This document shows, in pieces, positions 26,332-39,350 of a stretch of DNA of 64,000 nucleotides. The DNA comes from a virus. The position numbers were made by a program, and so were the translations under genes. Position 1 is the first letter of the stretch. Each line of letters begins with the position of its first letter. The DNA is taken from positions 1-64,000 of IMG/VR virus record IMGVR_UViG_3300025778_000010, one strand, 5' to 3'. The notes below the pieces were generated by a model. It searched no databases. It was not told where the DNA came from and worked only from the letters and a program-made list of their open reading frames with translations.

Positions 26332-28539
26332 TTATTGTTTTGTTGGTGGTCGGTAATTATGAACTAAAATATCATCTGCGTAATAAAGGTGATCTGGGCC
26401 AGTTTCTAGTGTAACTACCATAGTCATCTTGCTGTCATAAGTTATAGTATTAATTGGTATAATGCTGTTATCTTGAAAAGACATTAAGTTATCTTTTACT
26501 TTTAAATCTTGTGCTTGTAAAAATTGCCACTCGCCATTTCTTTCTACAAATACATAATGTTCCCATGTTATTTTTAAAAATTCATTAATTGTATAATACC
26601 CCTGATTAATTCTATGCTTAACTGATTTAACAAATGTTGTAATTGGAACAATTCCTTCTAAAGTTTTTGTTGACCAAACAGACGCTGGTGACCAATCTTG
26701 TGGATCTTCAGTTTGAGGATAGTTTGGAATATAAGCAGTATCTAGCTCCATCCCAACTTTTAATCTTTCAATTTCAACAGAACTTCCATTAGAGAGTCTT
26801 ATCATTGTTCCATAAGCTAAACACCCTCCCCCTCCAACACCCACTCCAACACCAACACCCACTCCAACACCCACTCCAACACCAACACCCACTCCAACAC
26901 CCACTCCAACACCAACTGGTGGATTAAAGAAACAATAATATGGTGAGACACCCACTCCAACACCCACTCCAACACCAACTGGTGGATTAAAGAAACAATA
27001 ATATGGTGAGACACCCACTCCAACGCCCACTCCAACACCAACACCCACTCCAACGCCTACTGGCACTGGTATAACAGTTAATGTAGCAGCAGATAATAGC
27101 GGAACTTCTCCATCAAAAGCTTGAATTGCATATGTTCCATATGATGAAGGTGCAGTAAAAGATGCATTTAATGCACCAAAAATTGTTTGATTTACTCCAT
27201 TAACAGAAATATTTGTAAGTGGTTGGGGTCCACTAATATTTAGTGTAACTGTTCCATTTGGATATGCAGTATAAGAAGTTGAACCTATGCTATCTTGTTG
27301 TGCTGGGCTTACACCTACACCAACTCCTACGCCAACACCAACTGGTGAGACACCAACAGGGGCGGAAGCCGAATAAGAGTAATAGCTTACATTTACTGCT
27401 GTTCCACCTGTTACGACTGTTCCTGGATTAACTGATTGTGAAAAAACATATTGATCTTGACTTGAATTTGAAGTTGTTTGAGATGTTGTTGTTCCTAATA
27501 CTAAACCTACTTGAGTTAAAGCATTTTGAGCATTATTTAAAGTTAATCCCACAATATTTGGAACAGTAGCTGTTGGAGGTGTATAAATAATTAAAGTTAA
27601 AGTAATTGCTAAAATATTAATATAAGGGCCAGGTAGGGGTGATTGGCTTAATACATAACCACCTAAAGCATTGTATGGTTGATATTGTGATTGTGTAGAA
27701 GAAATTACAGATGTATAAACTGTAAGACCTAAAGATTGTAGTTGATTATAAGCAGTATTATAATCTAATGTTGTTACATTTGGTATTACAACTGTTGTGC
27801 CAGTTATTGTTAAAGTTGTTGGTTGTGAAGTAATTAAATTATTATTAACATCATAAGCGGTTACAGTAATGTTTGCTACCCCTGGCACGGTTGCTGCAAA
27901 ATTAGTCGTTCCTGTATAAGATATTGCAGTTTGTACATTTTTAGAAAAATCTTGAAAAAATATTTTATAATATGAAGCAGCATTAAATGTATTCCAAGAT
28001 ACTGTAACATTTAAACCCGAACCTTGCACTGCTACTGGATAAAGATAATATTGTGTTACAGAACTACCACTTGTGCCATACGATTGAGATATGAATTGAA
28101 CGGTAGACGGAGGAAGAGCAGTTTGTGCAATAAAAGGTGAAGTTTTATTTAAAGCAATATTAATATACTGACTAATATAAGCATCTGTAGTTGAAATTGA
28201 TGATTCTACAGAACTTGTAGATTGTGCTTGTGCTTGAACACTATTAATATCTTGCACATTAATTTGAGCAATAATAGAATTAGTTAAATAATTAAAACCT
28301 TGATTATAAAAACTATTTGCTTGTGTAGGGCTATTTGCTGACGAAATTAATGAAAAAAGATATTGTGCTTGTACAGCATTATTTAAAGAAATATTATAAG
28401 TATTTGTTTGATCAGGTATATTAGTTAATTGTGCTGCTGTACCAGGAACAAGGTTATTTGCTGAAATTACGCCATTAGATCTGGGATCATTTGTCGCATT
28501 ACCCGTTGCTGGGTATTGTGAAAAATCATTTACTGCCAC
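26332..28539 (-). CDS. PASTA/(VG)n/Hint autoprocessing structural protein (735 aa)
   Basis: Domain order: N-terminal virion-like region (1-150), Fn3-like sandwich (about 162-247), two PASTA repeats (about 249-319, 'IPNVTTLDYNTAYNQLQSLG'; about 323-387, 'VPNIVGLTLNNAQNALTQVG'), a second sandwich (about 420-488), a Val-Gly repeat tract (about 490-572) interrupted twice by SPYYCFFNPP, then a Hint domain (573-728). The Hint part starts at Cys573 after GGGG, has block B as ITWEHYVFV (His661), and ends LVHN (727-728) followed by Tyr and only six more residues. This is an intein-like, endonuclease-free domain likely to cleave or transfer the N-terminal part. PASTA repeats usually bind peptidoglycan. 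A cell-wall-binding tail protein that is self-processed is inferred. Confidence 0.7.
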   Translation of the reverse strand: MAVNDFSQYPATGNATNDPRSNGVISANNLVPGTAAQLTNIPDQTNTYNISLNNAVQAQYLFSLISSANSPTQANSFYNQGFNYLTNSIIAQINVQDINSVQAQAQSTSSVESSISTTDAYISQYINIALNKTSPFIAQTALPPSTVQFISQSYGTSGSSVTQYYLYPVAVQGSGLNVTVSWNTFNAASYYKIFFQDFSKNVQTAISYTGTTNFAATVPGVANITVTAYDVNNNLITSQPTTLTITGTTVVIPNVTTLDYNTAYNQLQSLGLTVYTSVISSTQSQYQPYNALGGYVLSQSPLPGPYINILAITLTLIIYTPPTATVPNIVGLTLNNAQNALTQVGLVLGTTTSQTTSNSSQDQYVFSQSVNPGTVVTGGTAVNVSYYSYSASAPVGVSPVGVGVGVGVGVSPAQQDSIGSTSYTAYPNGTVTLNISGPQPLTNISVNGVNQTIFGALNASFTAPSSYGTYAIQAFDGEVPLLSAATLTVIPVPVGVGVGVGVGVGVGVGVSPYYCFFNPPVGVGVGVGVGVSPYYCFFNPPVGVGVGVGVGVGVGVGVGVGVGVGVGVGGGGCLAYGTMIRLSNGSSVEIERLKVGMELDTAYIPNYPQTEDPQDWSPASVWSTKTLEGIVPITTFVKSVKHRINQGYYTINEFLKITWEHYVFVERNGEWQFLQAQDLKVKDNLMSFQDNSIIPINTITYDSKMTMVVTLETGPDHLYYADDILVHNYRPPTKQ
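26816..27060 (-). repeat. Coding minisatellite encoding (Val-Gly)n
   Basis: Tandem hexamer/dodecamer repeats of the ACACCCACTCCA type on the plus strand, read as Val-Gly on the minus strand. A longer unit containing the SPYYCFFNPP-coding segment is duplicated almost exactly (about 26,920-26,960 and 26,980-27,020). A shorter copy of the same repeat occurs near 27,312-27,350. This is replication-slippage-prone DNA. Confidence 0.9.
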
Positions 28540-34568: not shown

Positions 34569-35480
34569 CTATAAACCAGTAGTTAGGGTGTGGATAAAAC
34601 CAACCATTACTACTACTCCACAAATTGCAGCCAATGTCCTATAATAGTCTTTCCAAACCGCCCCAAAATACCTTTGCCCTAAAAGCATGCATTTATGGAG
34701 TGGTGACAACATATAGCCAGACCAGCCAATTGCAAACAAGACTGGCAAATAGGTGATGCCAAAAATTGATGCTGTAAGAGCCACAACTCCAGTAAATTTT
34801 TCGCTGCTTCCAAAGGCCCAGCTCATAAAAAATACTAAAAGAAGTATTGGGAACAACAGAACGTGCTTATCTGTATTAGCTAACAAATGATCAAAAAACC
34901 CTGAGTTATAATAAATTATATTGCCAATAATATCCAGAGCTAGTACAAAAAGTACTGTAAAAATTCCTTCTTTAAGATATTTGATTCCATCTAAATTTTG
35001 ACGTTCTCTATGGCCTCGAACAACAATATCTACATCTTCTTCTTTAACTACCCAAAAATCATAAACTAAACTACAAATAATTGCTGCTGTAAGAATTGGC
35101 CAAATACGTCCAAAAAAACTCCAATACCCAATATGTAATGCAGCCATAGGTAATATAACTGATGCTTCTAATGGGGACCAAAAATAAAAATGATGTGCAT
35201 TTAGATAATCAACAATAGCAAATTTTTTACGTTTATTTGGATCTTCTGGTGCAATAGTTCTTAGTACCCCGCCAGAAATAACTGTCCTACCGTTAATTGG
35301 CATTACAGCGGTAGTTGCAGAAGTTAATACCATGACCGCTCTTTTTGATTTAATTCTATTTGCTAACCAACCAAAAACTGGTTGAAAGACATCATATTTT
35401 GTAGCATAATATGAAAGTACAAGAACAAACGCTAATGCTGCAACATATTGCCAATCTGTTAATAAATAACTAAGTGTCAT
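34569..35480 (-). CDS. DUF401-like polytopic membrane protein (303 aa)
   Basis: At least six hydrophobic segments (YVAALAFVLVLSYYA at about 12; PILTAAIICSLVYDFW at about 127; FTVLFVLALDIIGNIIYY; VLLFPILLLVFFMSWAFG; VVALTASIFGITYLPVLFA; LAAICGVVVMVGFIHTL). Two phrases resemble DUF401 transporters: SATTAVMPINGRTVISGGV (equivalent of the family's first 'P-x-P/N-G-x-x-x-S' loop) and WSGYMLSPLHKCMLLGQRYF (family 'G-x-x-L-SP-x-H-x-C-L'). DUF401 belongs to the ion-transporter superfamily and its substrate is unknown. It is shorter than typical family members (about 400), so may be reduced. Overlaps the upstream gene by four bases. A transporter in a fibre region is very unusual. Confidence 0.5.
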   Translation of the reverse strand: MTLSYLLTDWQYVAALAFVLVLSYYATKYDVFQPVFGWLANRIKSKRAVMVLTSATTAVMPINGRTVISGGVLRTIAPEDPNKRKKFAIVDYLNAHHFYFWSPLEASVILPMAALHIGYWSFFGRIWPILTAAIICSLVYDFWVVKEEDVDIVVRGHRERQNLDGIKYLKEGIFTVLFVLALDIIGNIIYYNSGFFDHLLANTDKHVLLFPILLLVFFMSWAFGSSEKFTGVVALTASIFGITYLPVLFAIGWSGYMLSPLHKCMLLGQRYFGAVWKDYYRTLAAICGVVVMVGFIHTLTTGL

Positions 35481-37120
35481 TTTTCAACTACCAATACATA
35501 TATGCCATTCCACCAATCTTTTTCAGATTCAGTAGAATTTAGGACTTTCTTTGAATATAAAACCTTAAGGTTAGATTTTACTATTCCTTCATTTGCTCCC
35601 GCCACAACATTAGTTCCGTTAGCATCATCAAATATCATTATAGCGTTTTTAGCAAAAGATTGTGAATAATATAAGACAGCTTTTGCTGTAGTTTCTTGAT
35701 CATGTGGTCCGTCATAAAAAAACAAATCAATATTTTTAATTAAAGATAAATTTACATCAAACAAATCTGTATTACATACAAAAATTTTGTTTTCTCCAGC
35801 ATATGGCTTGATGTTTTTTTTAAATTCTTCTAAACTATTAATATTTGGAGTTAATATATCTAATCTTTCAGGTTGTGGTGCAATTTCCCATTTATCAACA
35901 AAATAAGCATTTAATTTATTATCTTTAAGGGCTGAAGCTGCGGTAGCACCTAAATATGATCCTACCTCTAAATAATTACTTGATTCTTTTGCTAAAGAGT
36001 TAATTAAAGATTGCACTCTTGAACTTGTTAACCCTGGAACATCAATATCAAGGTCCACATTTACAGAATCAACTAATTGATTAATTACAAGAGTAACTTT
36101 ATCATTTTGTTTTTCTGGATATTTAGCTTTAATAATTTTGTCACAAAATCCACAATCCCAGCAATCAAACTTGCAGTTTTTAATTTTATTACGCCATACA
36201 TTAATGGGTTTATCAACAAGATTTGTCTCTTCAATAAAATCGTTAAAGCCATCAAAAAGTATTGGTTCGTTTGCCACATACTTTTTAATAATATCCATAG
36301 TCTCACGAAGCCTTACATGAGACTCTCGCCCATGCATCTTAATTACATCAATTCCTAAATTATCCAAAAATTCCTGCCAATCTTCACGCCATGGTGGAAA
36401 ATTAGCTACCTTAAGGGATGTAGCAGCATCTTCTTTTTGCCATTTAGGGCATGATACACGACTTATTGGATCATTAAAATATTGTGGTCCTTCTGAACGG
36501 GTATTATTAAATTGATAATGCTCATCCATCATAATACAACCGCCATAGCAGCCTTCATTTGCAAGTAAAGATAGTTTAACGCCATATTTTTCTTTAGCTT
36601 TTTTAAATCTTAAAAGCTTTTCATGATCTCTCATAAGATCTCTGTCAAGATTAATATAATCAAATCCTGCTTTAGATAACTTTTCAATATCTCTAGGTTC
36701 TGATACATTTCTAAGAATTGTATTTTTTACAAACAACTTTGGGAATTTAGATTTAATTTGTCCCGTTGACATCCAGTGGGTGTGAGGAATTGTAGCTGAT
36801 CTAATACCTGCATCATATAAAGGCTTAAAGTTTTTAATCCATAGGTCTAAGTTATCTTGTGAGGGCCTTACCTCTATATTGTTAAAAACTGCTGATGCGG
36901 TTACACCAGTAAATTCTTGAATATTTAAAGCTAGATCAATTAAATATTTATGATCTTCTTCTCCACCAATAAAATTATCCCCCATAGCATCTTGTGTAAA
37001 TGGGGGTATTCGGCAGGTAAAATAAAAATCATAGATAACATGATTGTACTCTTTAAGGAATAAGATAAATTCCTCAAGCTTATCTGGAGCAAGCTTGGGG
37101 TTTAAAGGAACACTAAACAT
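35477..37120 (-). CDS. U32-like protein fused to a class I methyltransferase (547 aa)
   Basis: Residues 1-330 resemble peptidase family U32, whose members (UbiU/UbiV, TrhP/RlhA type) bind a 4Fe-4S cluster and help hydroxylate small molecules or RNA. FDYINLDRDLMRDHEKLL is followed by LLANEGCYGGC (Cys191, Cys195) and HYQFNN, then Cys224, then a tight CKFDCWDCGFC cluster (Cys316, 320, 323, 326). Residues 380-547 form a SAM methyltransferase of the Methyltransf_24 kind: NYLEVGSYLGATAASAL (motif I) and DLFFYDGPHDQETTAKAVLY. The fusion could couple oxidation and methylation on one substrate, as U32 plus methyltransferase partners do for wobble uridines in tRNA. That function is speculation; the domains are moderately secure. 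Confidence 0.6.
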   Translation of the reverse strand: MFSVPLNPKLAPDKLEEFILFLKEYNHVIYDFYFTCRIPPFTQDAMGDNFIGGEEDHKYLIDLALNIQEFTGVTASAVFNNIEVRPSQDNLDLWIKNFKPLYDAGIRSATIPHTHWMSTGQIKSKFPKLFVKNTILRNVSEPRDIEKLSKAGFDYINLDRDLMRDHEKLLRFKKAKEKYGVKLSLLANEGCYGGCIMMDEHYQFNNTRSEGPQYFNDPISRVSCPKWQKEDAATSLKVANFPPWREDWQEFLDNLGIDVIKMHGRESHVRLRETMDIIKKYVANEPILFDGFNDFIEETNLVDKPINVWRNKIKNCKFDCWDCGFCDKIIKAKYPEKQNDKVTLVINQLVDSVNVDLDIDVPGLTSSRVQSLINSLAKESSNYLEVGSYLGATAASALKDNKLNAYFVDKWEIAPQPERLDILTPNINSLEEFKKNIKPYAGENKIFVCNTDLFDVNLSLIKNIDLFFYDGPHDQETTAKAVLYYSQSFAKNAIMIFDDANGTNVVAGANEGIVKSNLKVLYSKKVLNSTESEKDWWNGIYVLVVEK

Positions 37121-37681
37121 TTATAAATCTATCTTTGCTTCTTTTTCAGGGTACTTTTGAATACCAAAATTATAATGCATTAAATCAGATGTCTCTTCCA
37201 TATCTTTGCACTCGTCAATTCTTTCTTGCATACCTTTTTTTCTTGCATAAAGATCTTCTAAGGAAAGGTATCCCATTTCTGCTTTAAAAATATCTGGAGT
37301 ACCTAAAAACATGTAAAGTTTGTTATTATAATATTTATTTAACATACAATGCATGATAGCTTTTTCAAATAAATGAGCATTATATTTATCTTCTTCTGTA
37401 AGCGTATATCTTAATTTTTCGCCAACTTGCTCTAATTTATCTTTATCTGTTTGATCATATTGATTGGTGTCTGGCCTTACATTAAAATAACCTTTTCTAC
37501 GTCCAGCAAACTTATAAGCTAAAGCTACTTTTTCTGGAATCACCATGCACTCTGGCAGAGTATCTCTGTAAACAATAAATTCTTCTGTTCTTCCAATAAG
37601 AAAACCTGCATATTGACCAATTTCTTCAATAAAACCTTTTCTTTCATTTACTAAAGAATGCTCATAAATAAAATAAATCAT
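37121..37681 (-). CDS. Unknown protein of the U32 cassette (186 aa)
   Basis: The start at 37681 lies one base after the stop of the 244-residue gene. An upstream ATG would add 15 residues inside that gene. The N-terminus (MIYFIYEHSLVNERKGFIEE) includes a strand and helix. Also visible are RKGYFNVRPDTNQYDQTDKD and a helical C-terminal half (LEDLYARKKGMQERIDECKD). Not recognised. Translation is coupled to its neighbours on both sides, so it likely works with the U32-methyltransferase protein. It could be a partner or substrate-binding subunit; no catalytic motif is evident. Confidence 0.5.
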   Translation of the reverse strand: MIYFIYEHSLVNERKGFIEEIGQYAGFLIGRTEEFIVYRDTLPECMVIPEKVALAYKFAGRRKGYFNVRPDTNQYDQTDKDKLEQVGEKLRYTLTEEDKYNAHLFEKAIMHCMLNKYYNNKLYMFLGTPDIFKAEMGYLSLEDLYARKKGMQERIDECKDMEETSDLMHYNFGIQKYPEKEAKIDL

Positions 37682-37682
37682 T

Positions 37683-38417
37683 TTATAAATCCAATTCTGC
37701 CCAACCAGCTTTATCTGAACTTTCAAGTTCTAACTTATTCATAACATCTTTTTGTACTAATTCAAGTGTTTTTTGAGTAATAATTGTTTTTTCAACAGCA
37801 TTTTCTAATGCTTTCATTCTTACTTCTTCTGGAAGTTGATAGATAGCTTCAAGATTACCACCATTAATTCTTCCATAGAACATTAAATCATAAGCAGCTT
37901 GACCGCCAAGGCGGGTTGCCCAAAGTTCTGCCTCTAAACGCTCTTCTTCATCATAATCACCAATAATGTCTATATAACGTCTGCCATCTGGCATTTTGCC
38001 TTCTTCAGATTCATTAAACTTAGTAATTAAAGCCATATATTTATCACGTTCTTCGTAAACCATTGTAACTAAATTTTTTGTATTGTAAATAGATCTTTCT
38101 TTTTCACGAATTGTAATATTATGAATTTTCTTTTGAGCAGGAGAATCTGTTTTTTCTAATAATTCTTTTTCTAATTCTACTTCTGCTTGCAATTTTTCAA
38201 TTTTAAATTCATATTCAACAATATTATCTTCTCTTGATTTTAATTCAAGAAGAAATTGTCTTAGCTTTCCAAAATTGCTATATTGTGCTCCTCCAACAAA
38301 GTTATCAATCTTAAATGTTGGAACGCCCCAATTTCTATTTACTGCATATAAAAGCATATCTCTTTGTTCTTTTGAATAGCCGTCAACACGACTTGTAATA
38401 TCGTTAATATATCTCAT
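37683..38417 (-). CDS. Unknown coiled-coil protein of the U32 cassette (244 aa)
   Basis: First gene of a coupled four-gene cassette, 15 bases after a fibre gene. It has a strongly charged coiled-coil from about residue 60 to 160 (EYEFKIEKLQAEVELEKELL, then REKERSIYNTKNLVTMVYEE). An N-terminal helix (DGYSKEQRDMLLYAVNRNWG) and a C-terminal helical region ending EKTIITQKTLELVQKDVM follow. No known domain recognised. Similar long helical proteins occur in aquatic myo- and siphoviruses as accessory genes. The gene could form the scaffold of the complex, but this is inference. Confidence 0.5.
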   Translation of the reverse strand: MRYINDITSRVDGYSKEQRDMLLYAVNRNWGVPTFKIDNFVGGAQYSNFGKLRQFLLELKSREDNIVEYEFKIEKLQAEVELEKELLEKTDSPAQKKIHNITIREKERSIYNTKNLVTMVYEERDKYMALITKFNESEEGKMPDGRRYIDIIGDYDEEERLEAELWATRLGGQAAYDLMFYGRINGGNLEAIYQLPEEVRMKALENAVEKTIITQKTLELVQKDVMNKLELESSDKAGWAELDL

Positions 38418-38432
38418 TAATTTATCTTTCTT

Positions 38433-39350
38433 TTATGATCGTTGTGAGTTGTATGCAGAACTTCTGCCTGCGGGTCCTTGAGGTTGCATTGAAGATCCGC
38501 CCTCGTACCCTGAATCTGTTATATAGCTATAACGCCAAGCTCTTCTGTTTTGTGATCCATCGTAATTACCCATGCAGTATTGATGGTCTTGACCCATATC
38601 AAAGTTTTCTTCTCCGCAGTTACCAATTGGTTTTGAAACGTTACCTACGTTTGTTTCTGTTGCAACTGACCAACGACGTAAATAATAGCCTCCATTATAA
38701 CCTCCTTCATTACCTGCATAAAGGTAATTTAATTTAGAGGAAATACCTTTTTGTTGACCCCAATATCCACAAACGCTTGATTGTGATTGTGTTTCTGTTG
38801 CAAAAACAAATTTCATACCAATATTATTGTCTGCCCATGTATAACCAACATATTCATGATAAAAAGATGAACCACCCGAACCACCAGTAGTGTTTGAATA
38901 AGCATTTGACAAAGATGTTTGCCAAGTTGCATTTATCATATTAAATTTTACGATAGTTGTTGAAACATTTGCATTACCGTAAGCAAATTGTTGTTCTTTT
39001 TGCATAAATACACCTGAATTACCCAGTGAAACTGGAGCTGAAGCAGCAGTTGAGCCAACTTCTGTTCTCATATTAAACTGCATTACTGCTGGATCTGAAC
39101 CACCTACACCATTATTAGCTTTTGTAATCCAAGCTACGTTGTCATTGGCAAATCCTCCTGGATAACCCGTAGCTGCTGTAAGCACATCTCCTAAAGAAAC
39201 TGGAGTATCATTTGAGTGTAAATATCTATTTACATTTTTCCAAGGTGAGCTATTTTGGTATCCAGAGTGAACATACCCTGTTGTGATAACAGTTCTTAAT
39301 AAAAAACTTACTCTTGGATTATTGTGAATAGTACTTTGTGGAAATGGCAT
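38433..39350 (-). CDS. Tail fibre protein, cyanophage-like adhesin (305 aa)
   Basis: Gly/Asn/Tyr/Ser-rich structural protein with adhesin motifs AYSNTTGGSGGSSFYHEYVG and CMGNYDGSQNRRAWRYSYIT. The ending is Gln/Pro/Gly-rich (SSMQPQGPAGRSSAYNSQRS). Style resembles phage fibre tips of aquatic phages. It is followed by the four-gene cassette and preceded by a chaperone-like gene (overlapping at 39350) and a small sandwich protein. The N-terminal 60 residues likely connect to the preceding fibre elements. Receptor unknown. Confidence 0.6.
   Translation of the reverse strand: MPFPQSTIHNNPRVSFLLRTVITTGYVHSGYQNSSPWKNVNRYLHSNDTPVSLGDVLTAATGYPGGFANDNVAWITKANNGVGGSDPAVMQFNMRTEVGSTAASAPVSLGNSGVFMQKEQQFAYGNANVSTTIVKFNMINATWQTSLSNAYSNTTGGSGGSSFYHEYVGYTWADNNIGMKFVFATETQSQSSVCGYWGQQKGISSKLNYLYAGNEGGYNGGYYLRRWSVATETNVGNVSKPIGNCGEENFDMGQDHQYCMGNYDGSQNRRAWRYSYITDSGYEGGSSMQPQGPAGRSSAYNSQRS

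Follow-up and report, generated by a model that had tools for sequence, protein, structure and literature searches.

What does a phage do with a single protein that joins a Cys-rich barrel to a methyltransferase, and on what would such a protein act? The question is raised by an open reading frame at 35477-37120 (minus strand) of the window, the 64,000-nucleotide stretch of viral DNA analysed here. ORF calling and translation show that the frame is complete, begins with ATG and encodes 547 aa, with an N-terminal 7-Cys U32-related barrel and a C-terminal methyltransferase. In the PHROG search, phrog_1458 matched residues 46-547 (E = 1.8e-161) and phrog_36869 spanned residues 2-338. The earlier note had read the two halves as one chain, and homologues confirm it: the barrel-methyltransferase fusion was full length in ∼150 phage sequences retrieved, and 121 of the 123 phage records that carry the gene (among 50,697 searched; identity below 60%) matched it over at least 80% of its length. 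The fusion is therefore not a chance reading frame. The 123 carriers are all named as Synechococcus, Prochlorococcus or cyanophage, and cyanophage records call the family T4-GC 354, which is the same as phrog_1458. Hundreds of IMG/VR contigs also contain family members. One cyanophage record (P-SSM3, NC_021559, 114207-115858) has homologous DNA without an annotated gene, possibly a broken or missed gene.

Outside phage genomes, our search found no plasmid homologues, and the wider archaeal phylum gave no credible match to the phage-type gene. Two matches came from MAGs titled Euryarchaeota (L085) and Dehalococcoidia (L086). We rejected archaea or Dehalococcoidia as the source of the full phage-type gene because both of these gene-carrying contigs look like phage contigs. 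L086 appears identical to a viral contig, L113, in length and match position, and contamination is likely.

We examined the fold of the N-terminal half by structure prediction. Residues 1-340 (36101-37120, minus strand) are assigned to a U32-related TIM barrel with a Cys-rich end on the basis of AlphaFold2, a match to 5d88 and a bridge to PF01136. The AlphaFold2 models had a mean pLDDT of 83.5 for the whole protein and 78.1 for residues 1-345 (pTM 0.79). They contain an eight-stranded TIM barrel with the first Cys pair after strand 7, the Cys region being their least confident part. In VIA-align the best solved match of the full model was the U32 protein Mk0906 (5d88; Z 17.6, rmsd 3.0, 219 aligned); the domain model gave Z 17.0, rmsd 3.3 and 225 aligned against the same structure, with MTHFR as the next family at Z 14.5. 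Other TIM barrels ranked below 5d88 and were rejected as the best fold, although Foldseek alone placed an MTHFR chain first by a small margin. On these models, the N-terminal half is predicted to have a U32-type TIM barrel. A radical SAM barrel was also rejected, since PF04055 did not match the phage protein and the model has the conserved Cys after strand 7, not after the first barrel strand.

Sequence comparison reached the U32 proteins by a longer route. The phage protein itself gave no match to the PF01136 (Peptidase_U32) model, and nothing relevant was found when the barrel was compared with Pfam, NCBIfam and PDB sequences as a single sequence or as profiles A2 and A5; matches to a botulinum-like light chain and to a zinc finger were dismissed as chance. 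The HMM comparison to UbiU, TrhP and RlhA that the earlier note had proposed was unconvincing when made directly, as hhalign of the phage profile against single proteins gave 31.6 for the TatD control vs. 30.8 for TrhP. It succeeded through bacterial relatives. A profile of the phage domain found six genes in five genomes that we infer to be of Chloroflexota type (1e-26 to 1e-30), and a combined profile found more divergent 7-Cys genes in other genomes of the same class. These divergent relatives carry the phage signature NEGCLYKCPF...C...CX3CX2CX2C and exceed the PF01136 cut-off, down to E = 1.2e-15. In hhalign, the phage profile matched them at 4e-17, and they in turn matched a U32 profile (TrhP, UbiU, RlhA, UbiV and others) at 1e-16. 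Adding the relatives linked to reductive dehalogenase (rdhA) genes to the phage profile brought ten U32 proteins to the top ranks. The distant U32 homology of the phage barrel is thus established only through bacterial intermediates that link both families.

Single residues and the phylogeny agree with this placement. Residues 261-265 (KMHGR; 36326-36340, minus strand) occupy the place of the U32 motif KIEGR in hhalign. K261, G264 and R265 are invariant in 59 of 59 phage and bacterial sequences, as are N80, C191, C195, H201, C224 and W244. In the ML tree the phage clade (100/99) stands beside the first bacterial set (100/98) and apart from canonical U32, with long-branch warnings. Judged by sequences and models, the phage barrel is a U32 scaffold that forms its own 7-Cys branch within the U32 superfamily. 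The case that would have contradicted a U32-like reading, a plain aldolase barrel with no Fe-S ligands, was not found. That reading stands as distant homology, supported by structure and the bacterial bridge, and does not extend to a PF01136 match, to the Cys spacing or to the essential Glu.

All eight Cys listed in the earlier note (36, 191, 195, 224, 316, 320, 323, and 326) are present at those positions. When full-length phage homologues were reduced to 70 non-redundant sequences, seven of them (191, 195, 224, 316, 320, 323, and 326) were invariant (70/70), while residue 36 was C in 55, S in 13 and A in 1, so that Cys36 is not a conserved ligand. Cys191 and Cys195 (NEGCxxxC; 36536-36550, minus strand) together with Cys224 (36449-36451, minus strand) make up a three-Cys site that is invariant in 70 phage and 19 bacterial sequences. 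The second site, Cys316, 320, 323 and 326 (CX3CX2CX2C; 36143-36175, minus strand), is present in the 70 phage sequences and in 18 of the 19 bacterial relatives, which accordingly keep all seven Cys. The exception (L271, 292-1371) retains the three-Cys site and has lost all four C-terminal Cys, its remaining sequence being in frame. The loss of the last four Cys alone suggests two separable sites, CX3CX28C and CX3CX2CX2C. Both are putative Fe-S cluster sites.

This pattern differs from the four-Cys motif of U32 proteins, CX6CX15CX3/4C, for which UbiU and UbiV variants are also given (PMC6747719). Comparison of the invariant Cys showed neither the canonical motif nor the UbiU/UbiV variants in the phage protein. 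Of the proposal that the Cys occupy U32-like places, what holds is that the first Cys falls at about the U32 barrel place in the profile alignment; the spacing is unlike that of U32. A Glu eight residues before the first Cys is essential in TrhP (E162, C170) and RlhA (E161, C169) (PMC6599085). The corresponding residue 183 of the phage protein is Leu, and the bacterial 7-Cys relatives are likewise without Glu at this position.

Such differences could mean that the barrel performs another Fe-S chemistry, for example a radical, sulfur-transfer or rearrangement reaction on a peptide, with the methyltransferase acting on the product or on an ordinary side chain. A three-Cys site with a separate four-Cys site and the absence of the essential Glu would both fit this explanation, as would the fact that few U32 members have known functions. 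We consider it unlikely, given that the characterised U32 proteins are described with hydroxylations only (PMC6747719; PMC6599085) and that the methyltransferase is of the O-methyltransferase type.

The C-terminal half, residues 355-547 (35480-36058, minus strand), was assigned from PF13578, TrmR and fold matches to the class I SAM methyltransferases, as a predicted metal-dependent O-methyltransferase type. Pfam Methyltransf_24 (PF13578) matched residues 384-499 above the cut-off (E = 2.5e-8). The match contains the sequence YLEVGSYLGATA, which had been read as methyltransferase motif I and proved to be a genuine SAM motif I. In the phage alignment G387, G391, D409, D470, D498, D499, N501 and the terminal WWNG are invariant and E385 is nearly so. 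When the methyltransferase profile was compared with all PDB sequences, the only significant match was Bacillus subtilis TrmR (5zw3, E = 1.7e-4), a weak match (domain i-Evalue 0.0023) from which orthology is not assignable. By structure, this half ranks among many metal-dependent O-methyltransferases, the folds of which match at Z 15-17 (TomG, 17.1; TrmR, 15.7). Asp470 (35711-35713, minus strand), found in 69 of the 69 sequences with a residue at that position and aligned near a TrmR Asp, and Asp498 and Asp499 (35624-35629, minus strand), invariant and aligned with the TrmR Asp-Asn, are the predicted metal ligands. The invariant set is Asp-Asp-Asp, vs. Asp-Asp-Asn in cation-dependent O-methyltransferases, a class in which ligands of the Asp/Asn kind hold the metal (PMC6543040).

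In B. subtilis, TrmR methylates a hydroxyl on tRNA U34, and the trmR operon also encodes two U32 proteins, TrhP1 and TrhP2, which take part in forming that hydroxyl (PMC6599085). Because the phage domain matches TrmR, and TrmR works after U32 proteins, a sequence of hydroxylation and then O-methylation is plausible, and this link is the strongest argument for it. The type of the C-terminal half fits the earlier idea that a partner methyltransferase methylates the new hydroxyl. From sequence, models and analogy, we lean toward a combined hydroxylase and O-methyltransferase chemistry for the phage enzyme.

The same two components also occur together in bacteria. In the nearest bacterial set (18 kb loci, L189-L194) all six 7-Cys genes lie close to reductive dehalogenase genes, identified by PF13486 in two cases and by similarity in the others, and three of the six adjoin an O-methyltransferase gene of another family, PF00891. 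A 7-Cys barrel is thus paired with an O-methyltransferase twice, fused to it in phages and adjacent to it in bacteria. The literature searched offers no explanation for 7-Cys genes near reductive dehalogenases. A second cellular subgroup (L267, L269, L270, L273, and neighbours) lies in apparently fatty-acid-type loci, where FabF-, FabG- and PlsX-like neighbours were judged by sequence only. In two loci of different subgroups, a DAHP synthase gene of the shikimate pathway lies near the 7-Cys gene (L189, 7237-8052; L265, 2003-2875; 61% identical). Its proximity would fit a need for prephenate and may be chance.

In the window, the enzyme gene is the last of a same-strand cassette in which the genes are nearly in contact. 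Directly upstream is a 201-aa protein (37121-37726, minus strand), which belongs to neighbour cluster 3 and holds the T4-GC 353 position. It is preceded by a 244-aa protein (37683-38417, minus strand; phrog_1409, E = 4.8e-27) at the T4-GC 352 position and by a 305-aa fibre-like protein (38433-39350, minus strand; phrog_1417, E = 8.4e-44) at the T4-GC 351 position, called "fibre-like" because of where it lies, its PHROG neighbours and a record name, "sericin-like". The gene upstream of the fibre-like gene carries the tail assembly chaperone domain PF16778. This arrangement is widely conserved. In 137 of 153 contigs the gene immediately before the enzyme encodes a small protein of cluster 3 or 2, and in 138 of 153 (longest-ORF calls) the enzyme gene overlaps its upstream neighbour or is separated from it by ≤5 bases. 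The third gene upstream belongs to the fibre-like cluster in 120 of 132. Annotations of Syn33, P-HM2 and P-SSM4 give this four-gene order as T4-GC 351 to 354; in S-RIM14 the genes of the cassette lie several kb from one another. For the fibre-like protein, 123 phage records were matched, and their breakdown by name (77, 38, and 8) equals that of the enzyme. Co-occurrence was compared by totals and by this breakdown, and among the matches listed, 15 of 15 carry the enzyme.

The genes of the cassette differ in conservation. Median identity was 60% for the enzyme barrel, 36% for the methyltransferase and 32% for the fibre-like sequence, which retains a few positions near its C-terminus (GEE....G.......G.Y.G.QN). 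This pattern would be expected if an enzyme that stays constant met variable partners at one shared site. Linkage of two genes is no proof that the product of one acts on that of the other. As evidence of timing we discarded the T4-type late promoter TATAAATA, which is no commoner than chance. Directly downstream of the enzyme gene, at 34569-35480, the window encodes a membrane protein that matches DUF401 (PF04165) and, weakly, citrate-transporter-like families; a DUF401 gene is found near the enzyme gene in ∼60 contigs. Many marine relatives (L238-L240, L100, and L109) have genes for 2OG-Fe(II) oxygenases, which are O2-dependent hydroxylases, a few genes downstream of the enzyme.

Judged by its sequence, the window phage does not belong to the cyanomyoviruses. 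Its major capsid protein and the counterparts in Streptomyces phages (Faust and TunaTartare, for example) are 57% identical, making the capsid Streptomyces-siphophage-like, and it also encodes a long tape measure protein, a portal protein and a ribonucleotide reductase. The large protein encoded at 26332-28539 has long (VG)n repeats and, at its end, a Hint/intein-type-looking domain (CLAYGTMIRL ... YYADDILVHN), which is unusual for a structural gene region. Since the capsid is Streptomyces-like, yet the cassette occurs in 123 cyanophage records, the cassette is shared between unrelated tailed phages; their hosts, as far as these can be inferred, probably belong to different phyla. A T4-type neck gene was found in ∼460 records with cyanophage-type names, which, set against 123, places the enzyme-fibre pair in roughly a quarter of them. 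The enzyme gene moves with the fibre gene and is therefore more likely to serve the fibre than translation.

We propose that the gene belongs to a mobile phage fibre cassette and encodes its bifunctional modification enzyme. The 7-Cys barrel at the N-terminus would most likely bind Fe-S clusters and hydroxylate a target without O2, perhaps using prephenate as TrhP and RlhA do, after which the fused metal-dependent methyltransferase would cap the new hydroxyl to give a methoxy group. The target would most likely be the fibre-like protein of the same cassette. Among the three substrates named in the earlier note (tRNA, nucleotide, and peptide), the cassette context favours the last, a peptide or protein. 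The chemistry and the fibre target taken together are a tentative proposal, which we judge possible and short of probable. Somewhat more doubtful is the full account, in which a mobile cassette is common to unrelated phages that infect cyanobacteria and, probably, actinobacteria, and its U32-type Fe-S hydroxylase-O-methyltransferase would methoxylate the fibre protein.

The enzyme might instead act on a small molecule or glycan. Its methoxylated product, be it a metabolite, a sugar or a lipid, would then be attached to the fibre or change the surface of the host. UbiU-UbiV act on a quinone precursor, which they hydroxylate (PMC6747719), many enzymes that resemble the methyltransferase in structure, TomG, SpnH and MycF among them, have small molecules or sugars as substrates, the window phage has glycosyltransferase genes, and bacterial relatives lie in fatty-acid or dehalogenase loci. 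The conserved cassette, however, is without a glycosyl- or acyltransferase, and the co-occurrence partner is a protein gene; a substrate of this kind seems improbable to us.

RNA modification would follow the precedent of TrhP and TrmR, with U34 of a host tRNA converted to ho5U and then mo5U, or another RNA base hydroxylated and methylated, so as to tune translation during infection. The nearest biochemically known pair of such composition does act on tRNA, TrmR alone among PDB sequences significantly matches the methyltransferase domain, and both TrhO-TrmR fusions and a trmR-trhP1-trhP2 operon have been described (PMC6599085). The TrmR match is weak, however, and other O-methyltransferases match equally well by structure; the phage protein has no identified RNA-binding extension. 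The gene ends a conserved, overlapping fibre-like cassette and does not lie beside tRNAs or early genes, and for this reason an RNA substrate is less supported. Among the tRNAs detected along the 108 kb record (Asp-gtc, Arg-tct, Leu-taa, Gly-gcc, Gln-ttg, Asn-gtt, and one unclear), there is no member of the set that bears xo5U34 in E. coli. With the gene tied to the cassette and the phage's detected tRNAs outside this set, a tRNA or nucleotide substrate found no support, and we regard RNA modification as quite unlikely, although host tRNAs are conceivable targets. A structural protein or fibre-assembly chaperone with inactive enzyme halves would suit a gene that sits among structural genes and is very improbable, as the SAM motif, the predicted metal ligands and seven Cys are invariant while other cassette proteins vary widely.

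If methoxylation of the fibre protein is correct, phage virions would carry a post-translational modification that is new, and a U32-type enzyme would for the first time have a protein as its substrate. Chemical decoration of phage fibres might then play a part in host recognition. A chemistry would be connected with a large and so far unnamed phage gene family, and this widespread family would offer a self-contained two-step enzyme that is open to test.

TrhP, RlhA and UbiU-UbiV carry out O2-independent hydroxylation of tRNA, rRNA and a quinone precursor, respectively; to our knowledge, most relatives of these U32 hydroxylases are unexplained. The phage barrel is likewise modelled as a U32-type TIM scaffold with Cys after strand 7, and has N80 and KxxGR at U32 positions. 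It differs in the Cys pattern, the missing Glu, the fused methyltransferase and the lack of a PF01136 match. Among phages, the T4-GC 354/phrog_1458 proteins of Kyanoviridae are of the same family over the full length (43-45% identity) and lie in the same cassette, but their carriers are T4-like myoviruses, unlike the window phage, and in the records examined they are annotated only as hypothetical protein. The nearest cellular relatives, the Chloroflexota 7-Cys U32 proteins, have the same seven Cys and the same barrel; they are without the fused methyltransferase, and their context is reductive dehalogenase or fatty-acid genes, not fibre genes. TrmR (YrrM), the sole significant PDB sequence match, shares the Asp metal-ligand positions with the phage domain. 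The similarity is weak: the phage domain is a Methyltransf_24 (PF13578), has Asp-Asp where TrmR has Asp-Asn, and is not conserved as Lys at the general-base Lys position of the TrmR class (YDGPH). TrmR acts after U32 proteins encoded in its own operon, whereas the phage enzyme fuses barrel and methyltransferase in one chain.
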